A DNA stretch of 64,000 bases from Nitrospirota bacterium (lineage in GTDB: Bacteria; Nitrospirota; Thermodesulfovibrionia; Thermodesulfovibrionales; UBA1546). Positions 40,484 through 47,806 of this stretch are shown here, piece after piece. Position numbers and translations under genes: made by a program. Numbering within the stretch: position 1 is the stretch's first letter; each line of letters opens with the position of its first letter. Under the pieces are notes generated by a model. That model was not told the origin of the DNA and searched no databases. It saw only the letters and a program-made list of their open reading frames with translations. Where the stretch lies: the NCBI GenBank assembly GCA_016195565.1, contig JACPZK010000006.1, positions 156,900 through 220,899 on the forward strand, in the 5' to 3' direction.

Positions 40484-40515
40484 TTGACCCTGGAGTATAC
40501 TCCATGGTTTATACT
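40484..40515 (+). promoter_or_regulatory. MerR-type promoter with a perfect palindrome
   Basis: TTGACC and TATACT are separated by 20 bases. The spacer contains TGGAGTATACTCCA, a perfect 14-base palindrome. This is a clear operator/promoter for MerR and drives merR, the CopZ-MerT fusion and merP. Confidence 0.85.
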
Positions 40516-40538: not shown

Positions 40539-40955
40539 ATGAAATATTTGACCATAGGGCAACTGGCAAAGAAGGCAGGTGTGAATATTGATACCATCCG
40601 CTATTATGAAAAGCAGGGACTTATCCCAAAGCCATCACGGCGTGAGTCCGGCTATCGGCAGTATTCTCAGGATTCGGTCAAACGCATACTTTTCATAAAG
40701 CGGGCAAAGGATCTCGGTTTCTCTCTCAAGGAAATCTTTGAACTCCTCTCTTTGCGCCTTGACTCCAGAACAAAATGCGGAGATGTAAAGAAACGGGCAG
40801 ATATTAAAATTGCTGAAATAGAAGGAAAGATCCAGACCCTCCGGCGGATGAATGCAGCGCTTGTAAAGTTAGTAAAGGCATGTGAGGAAAATAAACAGGC
40901 CGGTGAGTGCCCTATACTGGAAGCACTGGATATGAATGGAGGAGAAAACTTATGA
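40539..40955 (+). CDS. merR: Mercuric resistance regulator MerR
   Basis: A 138-residue MerR. The helix-turn-helix is LTIGQLAKKAGVNIDTIRYY, then EKQGLI and ESGYRQYSQ. The three mercury ligands are in the right positions: TKCGDV, VKACEEN and AGECPILEAL. It is therefore a mercury sensor more than a general MerR protein. Its stop overlaps the CopZ-MerT start (ATGA), and a perfect-palindrome promoter precedes it. Unlike classic Gram-negative mer loci, merR is the first gene of the operon instead of divergent. Confidence 0.9.
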   Translation: MKYLTIGQLAKKAGVNIDTIRYYEKQGLIPKPSRRESGYRQYSQDSVKRILFIKRAKDLGFSLKEIFELLSLRLDSRTKCGDVKKRADIKIAEIEGKIQTLRRMNAALVKLVKACEENKQAGECPILEALDMNGGENL

Positions 40956-41863
40956 TCCCAATTGAAATTAGTCCACAGAAAAGTAGTGTGTTCCGATGCC
41001 CGTCCTGCGGCAATAATGGCAAGGCTGTTAAGACAACCACTCTTTACTCACTCATCAAGAAGGAAAGGCAGGACAGTATTACTGACTCCCGTTATTTTTT
41101 CTGCGACTCAAAAGGGTGTGATGTAGTTTACTTTACAGAAAACGGGAACCAGACCTTTCACAAACAAGACCTGGTTGTCAGGGTTGGAGTCAAGGAAGAT
41201 TCTCCCCCGCGACCGGTCTGTTACTGCTTCAATCACACTGTTGAAGAGATATTTGATGAGATTCAACTGACCGGTAAAAGCACGGTCATGGATGACATAA
41301 AGTTACATATGAAAAAAGGTGGTTGCTCCTGTGAGACCAGAAACCCACAAGGTTCATGCTGCATGGGAACTGTGGAATATTTTGTAAAAGAGGCATTTCG
41401 CCAGTTTGGGAAAACTGAGAGAGGAGGTGAGTTTATGAAAGAAAATTTGCACAGAATAGCAGAGGATTACTGCTGTTCTAAAGTGGAGAAAGGTTCTATG
41501 GAAGGTGTGAGGAAGACAAACCGTTTTGCTTACTTAGGACCTTTAGGGGGTATTATATCAGCTATATTAGCTTCTCTTTGCTGCGTTGGGCCTTTTGTCC
41601 TTGTAATGTTGGGAGCCAGCGGCGCATGGGTCGGAAATTTAAGGGCCTTTGAGCCATACCGCCCAATTTTTATCCTGTTCACTATGGGTTTTTTAGGTGC
41701 AGGATTTTACAATGTCTATAAAAAACCCAAGGATGACTGCAAGCCGGGGAGCCTTTGTGCTGTCCCGCAGACAAAAAAGGTAGGGAAGATTGTCCTCTGG
41801 ATAGCCGCAATCCTTGTGGTATTTCTGCTGCTTCTTCCTTACCTGATTGGTCTTCTGGTGTAG
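40952..41863 (+). CDS. merT: CopZ-type iron-sulfur metallochaperone fused to mercuric transporter MerT
   Basis: A 303-residue protein. Residues 1-150 match the N-terminal domain of archaeal CopZ: zinc ligands C16/C19 and C51/C56, and [2Fe-2S] ligand region C90/C92 plus C125/C127 and C136/C137. Residues 190-303 are MerT, with LGGIISAILASLCCVGPFVL (C210/C211), GASGAWVGNL, EPYRPIF and a second pair C263/C269, in three membrane helices. The linker holds C174/C175. An internal ATG at 41435 (residue 162) has a perfect AGGAGGTGA site, so a separate MerT of 142 residues could also be made. It imports mercury to the cytoplasm. Confidence 0.88.
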   Translation: MIPIEISPQKSSVFRCPSCGNNGKAVKTTTLYSLIKKERQDSITDSRYFFCDSKGCDVVYFTENGNQTFHKQDLVVRVGVKEDSPPRPVCYCFNHTVEEIFDEIQLTGKSTVMDDIKLHMKKGGCSCETRNPQGSCCMGTVEYFVKEAFRQFGKTERGGEFMKENLHRIAEDYCCSKVEKGSMEGVRKTNRFAYLGPLGGIISAILASLCCVGPFVLVMLGASGAWVGNLRAFEPYRPIFILFTMGFLGAGFYNVYKKPKDDCKPGSLCAVPQTKKVGKIVLWIAAILVVFLLLLPYLIGLLV

Positions 41864-41917: not shown

Positions 41918-42244
41918 ATGAAGAATGCATTTAAGATTTACAGAATGGTCATTTCAGCTTTTGTCCTGATGGGACTGGTTTTCTTTACCATTTCCATGGA
42001 CAATGCATGGAGCGCTGAGGGAAATTTAAAGCAGGTAACGCTTAAGGTTGAAGGCATGACATGCGCTGCATGTCCAGCGGCTGTCAAGGCAGCATTGAAA
42101 AGACTTCCGGGTGTAGTCAATGCGGATGTGAGTTTCAAAGAGGCAAAGGCAACGGTAAGTTATTATGAAGGTAATGCGACCGTTGAACAGATGATAAAGG
42201 CAATTGAAGACGCCGGATACAGCGCCCATAAAGAACCTCTTTGA
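41918..42244 (+). CDS. merP: Periplasmic mercury-binding protein MerP
   Basis: A 108-residue protein with a signal peptide ending near AWSAEG (residue 34) and one heavy-metal-associated domain. The metal loop is GMTCAACPAAVKAAL, followed by LPGVVNADVSFKEAKATVSY, as in MerP. It picks up mercury in the periplasm and hands it to MerT. An AAAGGAGG site precedes the ATG. It lies 54 bases after merT. No merA follows. Confidence 0.92.
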   Translation: MKNAFKIYRMVISAFVLMGLVFFTISMDNAWSAEGNLKQVTLKVEGMTCAACPAAVKAALKRLPGVVNADVSFKEAKATVSYYEGNATVEQMIKAIEDAGYSAHKEPL

Positions 42245-42996: not shown

Positions 42997-44190
42997 ATGT
43001 TGAAACTCTCTTTTTTATATATACTGATGCCGTTAACCATGTTATTCCCACCCGTCATTCATGGCCAGGCATATGGCCAAACAAGGACGCTCAATATTAT
43101 CTATACAGGCGGCGTAAATGGCGAGCTTGAACCATGCGGTTGTTCTCCAAAAACAGATTTTGGAGGTGTTGCAAGACGCGCAGGTTACCTTGCCGAACAT
43201 CGAAAGACGCTTTCTCCTTATATTCTCATTGATGCCGGGAATTTTTTAGATAAGGATACCCCTCAGGGGAAGCTCAAGGCCGAGGCAATGCTGAAAGCCT
43301 TCAGCATTATGAAATATGATGCAGTCGCTTTTTTAAAAATGGAAAAGGAATTCCCTTACAGCTTCTTTTCCGGTCTTTTAAAAAAATATAAAATCCCTGT
43401 TATCTCTGATATGCCCCAATATAAACAGTCTATCTCAATTAAACGTGATGCTTTTGTTGTTAATGTCAGCGTAAACCCGATGAATTATCAAAAGGGCAGA
43501 TTGAATGTCCTTCTTACAGACCAGCCTATTCCCGAGATTAAACACCTGAAGGGATGGAATGTCATAATACTCTCATCAGGAGAAATACTTGAAGAGCCTA
43601 TCAAGGCAAATGGAACGATTATTGTAAGCGGTTATCCAAAAGGAGAGAGATTGGGCATCCTGACACTGCAGTTTGACAGCGGTGGAGAGGTCTTAGAATC
43701 TAAACACAAGTGGCAGGCCCTTGGCAAAGATATAAAAGAAGATATAAATGTCCGAAAGGTTCTAAAGAAATATGATGCAAAGATTGCAAAACTTTTAAAA
43801 GATGACTACAAACCACCAGCAGATACACCTTACCTTGGTGTTTCTAAATGTGGAGAGTGCCATCAGCCTTTTGTTGAGAGCTGGAAGAAGACACGACATG
43901 CCGGCGCCTTTTCTTCGCTTGAGCGGGTGGGCAAGTCAGCAGACCCTGAGTGCATAAAGTGTCATACTGCAGGCTTTGGTGAGAAAGGAGGTTTTTACAG
44001 CGCTAAAACAACGCCAATGCTGACAAATGTTCAGTGTGAGGCGTGTCATGGATCAGGGAGAGAGCACCTTCTGAACCTTTCGAAGCCGATGCAGCCGGTG
44101 GCGGAATCTCTCTGTCTAAAATGCCATACAAAGAGCGCAAGTCCTGATTTTAATTATCCGGTTTATATGGAGAAGATCAAACACAAATAA
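42997..44190 (+). CDS. Tetraheme cytochrome c fused to a UshA-like domain
   Basis: A 397-residue exported protein. After a signal peptide (to about residue 28), residues 32-245 resemble the metallophosphatase/5'-nucleotidase N-domain, with IIYTGGVNGELEPCGCSPK, GGVARRAGYL and ILIDAGNFLD. The C-terminal third has four heme sites: CGECH, CIKCH, CEACH and CLKCH, with extra histidines (TRHAGAF) as ligands, like the cytochrome c554 group. It is matured by the ResB/CcsA system nearby. Its redox partner is unknown; it may serve respiration or thiol chemistry. Confidence 0.82.
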   Translation: MLKLSFLYILMPLTMLFPPVIHGQAYGQTRTLNIIYTGGVNGELEPCGCSPKTDFGGVARRAGYLAEHRKTLSPYILIDAGNFLDKDTPQGKLKAEAMLKAFSIMKYDAVAFLKMEKEFPYSFFSGLLKKYKIPVISDMPQYKQSISIKRDAFVVNVSVNPMNYQKGRLNVLLTDQPIPEIKHLKGWNVIILSSGEILEEPIKANGTIIVSGYPKGERLGILTLQFDSGGEVLESKHKWQALGKDIKEDINVRKVLKKYDAKIAKLLKDDYKPPADTPYLGVSKCGECHQPFVESWKKTRHAGAFSSLERVGKSADPECIKCHTAGFGEKGGFYSAKTTPMLTNVQCEACHGSGREHLLNLSKPMQPVAESLCLKCHTKSASPDFNYPVYMEKIKHK

Positions 44191-44914: not shown

Positions 44915-45447
44915 AAAAGATGATAATAATCTTGATGCTTATTATTGCTGGATTAGCGCTTTTCTTTTTTATGCCAAAAGAAATAGAGAGGGTACACAGG
45001 GCTATGGCTGCAGTCGGCCTTAAAGCGCCTGACTTTGAGTTGCCGGAATTAGACACCGGCAGCAAGGGTTCGTCTATGATATGGAGGCTCTCGGAGTTAA
45101 GGGGTAAGGTTGTATTTATAAACTTCTGGGCCTCCTGGTGTGATGAATGCAAAAAGGAAAAGCCTGCTATGCAGAGGCTTTATGAGAAGATGCAGGGCAG
45201 GCCTTTCCAGATGCTCACAATCATTTACAGGGATGATGCAAAAAAGGCTGTCGATTACATGAAGATAAATGGCTATCCCATGCCTGTGCTTCTTGATTAC
45301 GACATGAAGGTTGCCAGAAACTATTGGGTCAGAGGGGTGCCCGAAACATTTATCATTGATAAAGAAGGCATTGTAAGAGAGAAGATAATCGGTCGAAGGC
45401 AATGGGACAGTCCTGAAGCTATAGGGCTCATTGAGAAGCGGCTATAG
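44911..45447 (+). CDS. TlpA/ResA-like membrane-anchored thioredoxin
   Basis: A 178-residue protein anchored by an N-terminal helix (residues 3-20). The TlpA-type domain has APDFELPELD, VVFINFWASWCDECKKEKPA with a CDEC site, and VRGVPETFIIDKEG with the cis-proline. ResA-type proteins reduce apocytochrome cysteines before heme attachment, which fits the cytochrome upstream and resB-ccsA downstream. Start overlaps the DsbA-like stop. Confidence 0.87.
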   Translation: MKKMIIILMLIIAGLALFFFMPKEIERVHRAMAAVGLKAPDFELPELDTGSKGSSMIWRLSELRGKVVFINFWASWCDECKKEKPAMQRLYEKMQGRPFQMLTIIYRDDAKKAVDYMKINGYPMPVLLDYDMKVARNYWVRGVPETFIIDKEGIVREKIIGRRQWDSPEAIGLIEKRL

Positions 45448-45484
45448 TGACTTCTTGCGAAGATATGGAATGAGGAAACCGTTT

Positions 45485-47806
45485 ATGAATCCAGATAGAG
45501 AAAAGATATTTACCATAAAGGGTATGGACTGTGCTGACTGTGCCATGAAGATTGAAAAGGCAGTCTCTAAGATTCCCGGCGTAAAACTTGCCCATATCTC
45601 TTTTGCTACCGAAAAACTAAAGGTGGTTTCTGAGACTCAATTAGATGAAATGCAGATATTGGATGTTATCAAGAGAATGGGTTACTCTGCCCAGGCGGAA
45701 GAACCATATAGGGCTATAACCTTGAATATAGAGGGGATGGACTGTGCTGATGAACAGGAAGTTATCGAGAAGAAGATGAGGGCATTAAATGGCAGTAAGG
45801 ATTTTGATATCTATCTTATGACTCAGCAGCTCAAGGTATCTTATGACCCGGCGCTTATTTCAGTTCAGGATATTATTAAATCAATTGCTGAAACTGGGAT
45901 GAAGGCGTCTCTGGTAAGGGATAAAAAAGAGAAAGGAAAGTCCTGGTGGAAAGAAAAAAGGCAGATGCAGTTACTCATTATCTGCGGCCTCTTAATAGTC
46001 ATTGCCTTTCTTCTGGAGCGTTTTGGACTTTCTCATGATAAGGCAAAAGTCGTATATGGATTTGCAATACTCACTGGCGCCTACTATCCGGCAAGGATGG
46101 GGCTTTCCGCCTTGAAGACTTTGACACTCAATATAAGACTCCTGATGGTGATAGGCGCAGCAGGGGCTGTTGCGCTGGGCCTGTGGGAAGAGTCCGCCCT
46201 CCTTGTCTTTATTTATTCTCTTGGCGATGTCCTTGAAGCCTATGCTGTTGATAAAGCACGGGGAGCGATCAGGGCCTTGATGGAACTCGTTCCGAAAGAG
46301 GCGCTTGTGCGCAGAAATGGCAATGAGATTGTCCTTCCCACCGAAGAGATCAATGTTGGTGATATAGTTATCGTGAGGCCGGGCGAGAAGATTCCTATGG
46401 ATGGCAAGGTGATAGCCGGCGCCTCCTTTGTGGATCAGTCTCCAATCACAGGGGAATCAATCCATGTAGAAAAAAAGATCGGTGACAAGGTTTTTGCCGC
46501 CACGATCAACCAGAGAGGCTTCCTTGAAGTGAGAGTGACGAAGAGGGTAACAGATACAACACTTGCAAAGATTATCCACTCTGTTGAAGAGTCTCAGGCA
46601 AGAAAGTCTAAGTATCAGCGTTTCGGGGAAAGATTCGGGAAATACTACACACCGGCGATGTTCGCCTTAGGTATTGGAATAGCATTTATCCCCCCTTTAT
46701 TCTTTGGAGGAGATTGGCAATCCTTTATATATCGCGGCCTGGTGGTCTTTGTGGTCTCCTGTTCCTGCGGCCTTGCCTTATCAGTTCCAATATCTGTTGT
46801 GGCTGCGATCGCAAATGCCGCGCGAAACGGTGTCCTATTTAAGGGCGGCGCTTATCTGGAGGTCGCAGAAAAACTCAGAGCCATCGCCTTTGACAAGACA
46901 GGAACCCTTACCATTGGAAGGCCTGCGGTTACTGATATAAGCGTTCACAATAATCTCTCTGAAAAAGAGGTTCTTTCTATAGCAGGCAGCATAGAGTCCC
47001 GTTCTGAACATCCTATAGCAGAGGCAATCGTAAGAAAAGCAAAAGAGGCAGAAGTTACCCTGCTACCAATCGAAGGATTTGAGGCGATGGTAGGATTGGG
47101 GGTAAAGGCACGGCTTAATGGTGACATATATTTCATCGGAAGCAGGCGACTCTTTTTAGAAAAAGGTATTTCATTAACTCAGGCACAAAACGAAGAGGTA
47201 TCTCGCCTTGAAAACGAAGGGAAGACTGTTTTGCTCTTAGGCAGTGAACACAACCTATTAGGCATGTTGGCAGTAGCTGACAAATTAAGAACTGACGCAG
47301 AAGAGACTGTAGCAATATTAAGAAGATCAGGAATAAAGGTAGTCATGCTCACCGGTGATAATGAGGAGACAGCAAAGGCGATCGCCCATCAGGCAGGGGT
47401 GGATGAGTATCTGGCTCAACTCTTACCCGAAGATAAAGTCGAGACGGTAAAAAAGCTTAAACACAGGTATGGCAGAGTTGCAATGGTTGGAGATGGCGTG
47501 AATGACGCCCCTGCCATGGCTGTCTCTGATATCGGAATAGCAATGGGAGCAGCAGGAACGGATGTGGCTATGGAAACCGGAGACATTGTTCTGATGTCTG
47601 ATGATCTCTCTAAAATCCCTTATGCCCTAAGGTTAAGCCAGAGATCAATTAAAAACATCCGTCAGAATATAATTGCCTCTTTAGCCATCGTGGCCTTCTT
47701 GATCCCGGCAGCCTTGATTGGATGGATCGGCCTACTGCCCGGACTGCTTCTTAATGAGATTAGCGCCCTAATAGTAATTGTTAATGGCCTCAGGTTACTG
47801 AAATGA
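45485..47806 (+). CDS. P1B-type heavy-metal ATPase with a CSC membrane motif
   Basis: About 773 residues from the ATG at 45485, which has GAGG upstream; the frame opens earlier at 45431. A first metal domain has GMDCADCAMKIEKAV; a second has GMDCADEQEV, with one metal cysteine lost. The motor is complete: TGES, DKTGTLT (aspartate near residue 470), SEHPIAEAI and GDGVNDAPAM. In the sixth helix the usual CPC is CSC (residues 426-428), in VVSCSCGLALSVP. It exports soft metal ions such as zinc, cadmium, lead or mercury; specificity is not clear because of the CSC. Confidence 0.9.
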   Translation: MNPDREKIFTIKGMDCADCAMKIEKAVSKIPGVKLAHISFATEKLKVVSETQLDEMQILDVIKRMGYSAQAEEPYRAITLNIEGMDCADEQEVIEKKMRALNGSKDFDIYLMTQQLKVSYDPALISVQDIIKSIAETGMKASLVRDKKEKGKSWWKEKRQMQLLIICGLLIVIAFLLERFGLSHDKAKVVYGFAILTGAYYPARMGLSALKTLTLNIRLLMVIGAAGAVALGLWEESALLVFIYSLGDVLEAYAVDKARGAIRALMELVPKEALVRRNGNEIVLPTEEINVGDIVIVRPGEKIPMDGKVIAGASFVDQSPITGESIHVEKKIGDKVFAATINQRGFLEVRVTKRVTDTTLAKIIHSVEESQARKSKYQRFGERFGKYYTPAMFALGIGIAFIPPLFFGGDWQSFIYRGLVVFVVSCSCGLALSVPISVVAAIANAARNGVLFKGGAYLEVAEKLRAIAFDKTGTLTIGRPAVTDISVHNNLSEKEVLSIAGSIESRSEHPIAEAIVRKAKEAEVTLLPIEGFEAMVGLGVKARLNGDIYFIGSRRLFLEKGISLTQAQNEEVSRLENEGKTVLLLGSEHNLLGMLAVADKLRTDAEETVAILRRSGIKVVMLTGDNEETAKAIAHQAGVDEYLAQLLPEDKVETVKKLKHRYGRVAMVGDGVNDAPAMAVSDIGIAMGAAGTDVAMETGDIVLMSDDLSKIPYALRLSQRSIKNIRQNIIASLAIVAFLIPAALIGWIGLLPGLLLNEISALIVIVNGLRLLK

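Follow-up and report, generated by a model that had tools for sequence, protein, structure and literature searches.

The window, that is, the whole stretch of 64,000 nucleotides of Nitrospirota DNA analysed here, carries a merR-(copZ-merT)-merP gene set on its forward strand. A MerR-type promoter/operator (40484-40515), read from the sequence, precedes the genes. It consists of TTGACC (40484-40489), the dyad TGGAGTATACTCCA (40491-40504) and TATACT (40510-40515) with a 20-base spacer, and is conserved upstream of merR in two related loci (L002 and L030). The merR-like regulator (40539-40955) scored 150.6 bits against TIGR02051, just under the cut-off of 150.85; its best solved relatives are the Hg-MerR structures 4ua1 and 5crl, with three cysteines in register. 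The merP-like gene (41918-42244) encodes an exported HMA protein (HMA, 63.8 bits; TIGR02052, 72.0 bits, under the cut-off of 92.55). Linked merR and merP are present by Pfam domains and gene order, both under the NCBIfam cut-offs. Further downstream, 42997-44190 encodes a cytochrome c554-type multihaem region with a short UshA-like stretch at its N-terminal end, and genes of the DsbA and TlpA types stand in the same run. A P-type metal ATPase (45431-47806) has two HMA domains and the membrane metal motif SCSCGL where CPC is usual.

Between merR and merP lies a single ORF of 303 residues (40952-41863). Its ATG at 40952 overlaps the merR stop codon as ATGA (40952-40955) and is preceded by the Shine-Dalgarno (SD) sequence GGAGGAG (40938-40944; -9.3 kcal/mol). 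The frame closes at 41861-41863. Residues 10-146 (40979-41389) form a CopZ-type Zn/[2Fe-2S] domain with cysteines 16, 19, 51, 56, 90, 92, 127, 136 and 137. Residues 10-141 matched the NCBIfam family NF047645, 'putative iron-sulfur cluster-binding metallochaperone', with 128.7 bits (cut-off 100), and residues 15-74 matched Pfam zf_CopZ (PF18423; 71.6 bits, cut-off 28.4), while Pfam Fer2_BFD at residues 89-142 reached 22.2 bits, under its cut-off of 26. The solved structure of the Archaeoglobus fulgidus CopZ N-terminal domain (2hu9; E 8e-18) can be aligned to this part, all nine cysteines being in register. With cysteines present at the putative metal sites, the domain is predicted to bind Zn and a [2Fe-2S] cluster. 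Residues 198-301 matched Pfam MerT (PF02411; 118.3 bits, cut-off 32.9). The fusion missed the cut-off of the NCBIfam MerT equivalog NF010314 (110.6 versus 150 bits), and the Pfam search returned no HMA domain in it. Thus, the fusion proposed in the initial annotation is present at exactly the coordinates given there, with no internal stop and with both domains above cut-off (NF047645 and PF02411).

The MerT part carries an invariant Cys210-Cys211 pair in the first transmembrane helix (TM1) and Cys263 and Cys269 in a loop, within KKPKDDCKPGSLC. Hydropathy detected two of the three transmembrane helices expected of MerT, and three long helices appeared in a low-confidence structure model; this AlphaFold model (pLDDT 57, pTM 0.33, 10 sequences) is too poor for judging domain contacts. 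The second MerT loop is positively charged, in keeping with a position of CopZ on the cytosolic side. Searched at full length, the fusion matched only itself in its own genome and had no relatives in viral contigs.

A second ATG, at 41435, lies in frame with the fusion and corresponds to residue 162. It is preceded by the SD sequence AGGAGGTGA (41422-41430), which occurs once in the 64 kb and pairs with the anti-SD of the 16S tail at -16.3 kcal/mol. Of the window's internal in-frame ATGs (374 in total), none has a better site (runner-up, -12.0 kcal/mol), and the 57 starts of longest ORFs all have weaker ones (best, -12.1). This exceeds chance. In four relatives (L003, L004, L030 and L031), merT starts at the position homologous to residue 162, or within two residues of it, with SDs of -15.2 to -16.3 kcal/mol. 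Since unfused relatives start merT at the homologous site with a similarly strong SD, ATG 41435 is merT's own start, kept inside the fused frame. Translation from it would yield a MerT of 142 residues (41435-41863) with an N-terminal Cys174-Cys175 pair in addition to the TM1 pair and the loop cysteines Cys263 and Cys269. As in internal-start two-product genes, a strong in-frame ribosome binding site and a start codon sit together at the domain border, and the gene probably has two products, the full fusion and the free 142-residue MerT. The initial annotation had noticed this second start; its rank among the internal ATGs and the merT starts of the relatives now back it.

We compared the locus with related loci carrying copZ and merT in different arrangements. 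The two are separate genes in G032 (L004), 15 bases apart, and in G031 (L006), 14 bases apart. Read-through or selenocysteine insertion at the TGA in G032 was considered and rejected, since the first gene ends at an ordinary stop and the second has its own SD and ATG. In G222 (L030), which shares 89% (merR) and 82% (merT) DNA identity with the window, copZ is absent exactly between the end of merR and the SD of merT. The ATG homologous to 41435 is the merT start there, behind an SD of equal strength. In the window, the block missing there is bounded by GGGAAAACT (41408-41416) and its near-repeat GGAGAAAACT (40941-40950). A genome of the same order but a different family (G387; L002), assembled independently, has the same operon with CopZ and MerT fused in frame, at 92% (CopZ part) and 86% (MerT part) DNA identity to the window. 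Its fusion has 265 residues. The linker with the SD, the ATG and a Cys-Cys pair is deleted, and no comparable internal start is present. The window thus holds a gene fusion that keeps the start of the second gene, and a relative has since lost that start.

Between the window and G387, dN/dS was 0.26 for CopZ and 0.20 for MerT. A merR+merT tree grouped G387 with the unfused L030 at a support of 95 and placed the window outside; note that it comprises five sequences and that recombination is possible, dS being 0.21 in copZ and 0.41 in merT. From this grouping, the copZ block seems to be the older state, with a loss in L030. MerT was absent from all genomes examined of the same genus (7) and the same family (8), and the block was therefore probably acquired horizontally.

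The database search for further such fusions that had been proposed initially retrieved, besides G387, a protein of 411 residues on the Planctomycetes plasmid pK2D_1 (QDV81057.1; L061 4001-5236, CP036351.1). It has the same CopZ-MerT order in one chain, but differs from the window fusion in an extra C-terminal HMA domain, an identity of about 37% and the lack of a strong internal start. This protein is annotated 'Mercuric reductase', yet is without a reductase domain. Another Nitrospirota genome (G332; L034 1051-1794) encodes a MerF-CopZ fusion of 247 residues. In this mirror image of the window fusion, Met88 stands at the start of CopZ behind a moderate SD (-8.0). MerT is N-in/C-out, and both ends of MerF are cytosolic. 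Given this topology, CopZ would be cytosolic in all three orders (CopZ-MerT, CopZ-MerT-HMA and MerF-CopZ), and the HMA domain would be periplasmic.

The CopZ part was also used to collect 16 Nitrospirota loci (L031, L033-L046 and L052, of which L039 and L040 look identical). A merF or merT gene lies within 1.5 kb of CopZ in 14 of them, several overlapping by four bases. CopZ of the NF047645 type is thus regularly tied to mercury importers in Nitrospirota. Fusion and neighbourhood together thus link a little-studied Zn/[2Fe-2S] 'CopZ' family to mercury import. Some of these loci also encode MerB-MerT fusions with an alkylmercury-lyase domain N-terminal of MerT (L039 1844-3100, L035 1796-3139 and L040 318-1574); these genes are preceded by merF and copZ genes that overlap each other.

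Among known systems, A. fulgidus CopZ (2hu9) shares the Zn/[2Fe-2S] N-terminal domain with the window fusion. It is soluble, and according to its published description the domain is followed by an HMA copper domain, whereas in the window the domain is followed by the membrane importer MerT; with no C-terminal HMA in its chain, the window fusion does not qualify as an A. fulgidus-type CopZ as a whole protein. The NF047645 family (CopZ_Nterm_CC) comprises the stand-alone domain, often encoded beside merF or merT, in contrast to the fused copy in the window. The MerTP fusion (NF033556) and the MerT/CopZ fusion-like selenoprotein (NF045683) likewise join MerT to a metal-binding domain, but there MerT comes first with a C-terminal HMA, whereas the window has an unrelated Zn/[2Fe-2S] domain ahead of MerT; the window fusion missed both cut-offs (NF045683, 84.1 versus 375 bits). 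The locus has the merR-merT-merP order of the canonical mer operon, from which it differs in that copZ is fused to merT and no merA was found in the genome. Among the papers covered by our literature search, none was found to describe a CopZ-MerT fusion. To this extent the view in the initial annotation that the architecture is undescribed holds, but by sequence comparison it is not unique to the window and occurs elsewhere too, as the same fusion in G387, the CopZ-MerT-HMA protein of pK2D_1 and the MerF-CopZ protein of Nitrospirota indicate.

We searched the genome for the enzymes that act on mercury. No MerA match above the TIGR02053 cut-off was obtained in it, three relatives being positive as controls, or in G387. 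The best match in the genome (56121-57509; 349 bits) is a dihydrolipoamide-dehydrogenase-like ORF adjoining a GcvH-like ORF and was rejected as a MerA candidate. MerB gave no match, but the control genomes gave none either. Without MerA, an importer alone would not detoxify mercury, which counts against reading the locus as a Hg(II) importer, as do the NCBIfam equivalog cut-offs missed by MerR, MerP and MerT. Mercury is favoured by the type of the MerR, by the MerT/MerP setting and by the relatives that carry merA.

On balance, we consider it reasonably likely that merR-(copZ-merT)-merP is a Hg(II) import operon, in which the fusion provides a tethered cytosolic CopZ acceptor and free MerT is made in addition from 41435. 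MerP would pass Hg(II) to the MerT cysteine pairs, which would carry the metal through the inner membrane. On the cytosolic side, the CopZ-type domain tethered at the N-terminus would then take the metal over from MerT, serving as its first acceptor or buffer in the cytosol. The full fusion would be translated from 40952, coupled to merR via the ATGA overlap, and the 142-residue MerT from 41435. The identity of the metal, the membrane topology, the metal handoff and the use of both starts are what we infer from the sequences. The loss of the internal start in G387 indicates that free MerT is dispensable there and counts against two products. A fusion of this kind would be a natural single-chain system for the passage of metal from an importer to a cytosolic acceptor.

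Two alternatives concern the gene itself. The window organism might have adjacent copZ and merT genes, their frames joined by an assembly or sequencing indel in the A4 run at 41411-41414. One additional A would create a copZ stop (TGA) just before the SD, and one A fewer a TGA overlapping the merT ATG; moreover, the species is represented by one genome. The initial annotation had named relatives with two separate genes and a missed stop as grounds for dismissing the fusion. Such relatives exist (L004 and L006), but G387, from an independent assembly, is fused in frame whatever reads of the window show, so that the architecture is not simply an error. The CopZ tail is, furthermore, shorter in the window and G387 than in L004 and L006, and the fusion is therefore not simply the same gene pair minus a stop. 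Four-base homopolymers are also seldom miscalled by short reads, and we regard an indel as rather improbable. Alternatively, only the fusion might be functional, with an internal SD and ATG that persist as a little-used relic of an unfused merT. In line with this, G387 dropped linker, SD and ATG while both domains are still under purifying selection, and the pK2D_1 fusion has no strong internal start. The site in the window is, however, still complete and the strongest there, and the merR+merT tree (95; few sequences) puts the unfused L030 inside the fused lineage, where the merT start would need to have remained usable. A mere relic is possible but unlikely.

Two further alternatives concern function. 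The operon could serve a thiophilic metal other than Hg(II), with Cu(I), Cd(II), Zn(II) and Pb(II) as candidates. This would fit the absence of MerA, the sub-threshold mercury scores of MerR and MerP, the role of A. fulgidus CopZ as a copper chaperone, the P-type metal ATPase downstream (45431-47806) and the operator, which resembles that of zntA. Against it, MerR is nearest to Hg-MerR in both family and structure searches with three cysteines aligned, the nearest MerT relatives adjoin merP and merA, and CopZ adjoins merF, merT and MerB-MerT in the phylum; we therefore find a different metal doubtful. The [2Fe-2S] domain might also stand in for MerA, acting as a redox partner in the reduction of the Hg(II) that is imported. 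Every cluster-site cysteine is kept, neither the own genome nor G387 has a MerA above cut-off, and A. fulgidus CopZ is reportedly a Cu(II) reducer. CopZ and MerA occur together in G031 and G032, however, and CopZ is thus not simply a replacement for MerA, leaving such a role very improbable. Import of Hg(II) with CopZ as acceptor remains our preferred reading.

Finally, the contig that carries the fusion also encodes HgcA, about 54 kb upstream (389 bits, cut-off 275; motif NVWCAAGK), with hgcB adjoining. The pair (G000:C6:143020-143994; L069 1477-2574 and 1156-1461) lies about 14 kb before the start of the window. G387 has hgcAB as well, on another contig than its fusion. The presence of hgcAB in two of two fused genomes is suggestive, though weak, evidence of a link to the fusion. 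An association of MerT with HgcA across the order was unsupported: HgcA occurs in 63 of 177 genomes of the order and in 6 of the 18 with MerT, and hence shows no enrichment. Hg(II) transport into methylators has been called poorly understood (PMC12915048), and a genome in which hgcAB occurs with a MerT importer but no MerA was found bears on this uptake. It is conceivable, but a long shot, that such a MerA-less methylator uses MerP together with the MerT-CopZ fusion as a dedicated route of uptake and handover that supplies intracellular Hg(II) to HgcAB.
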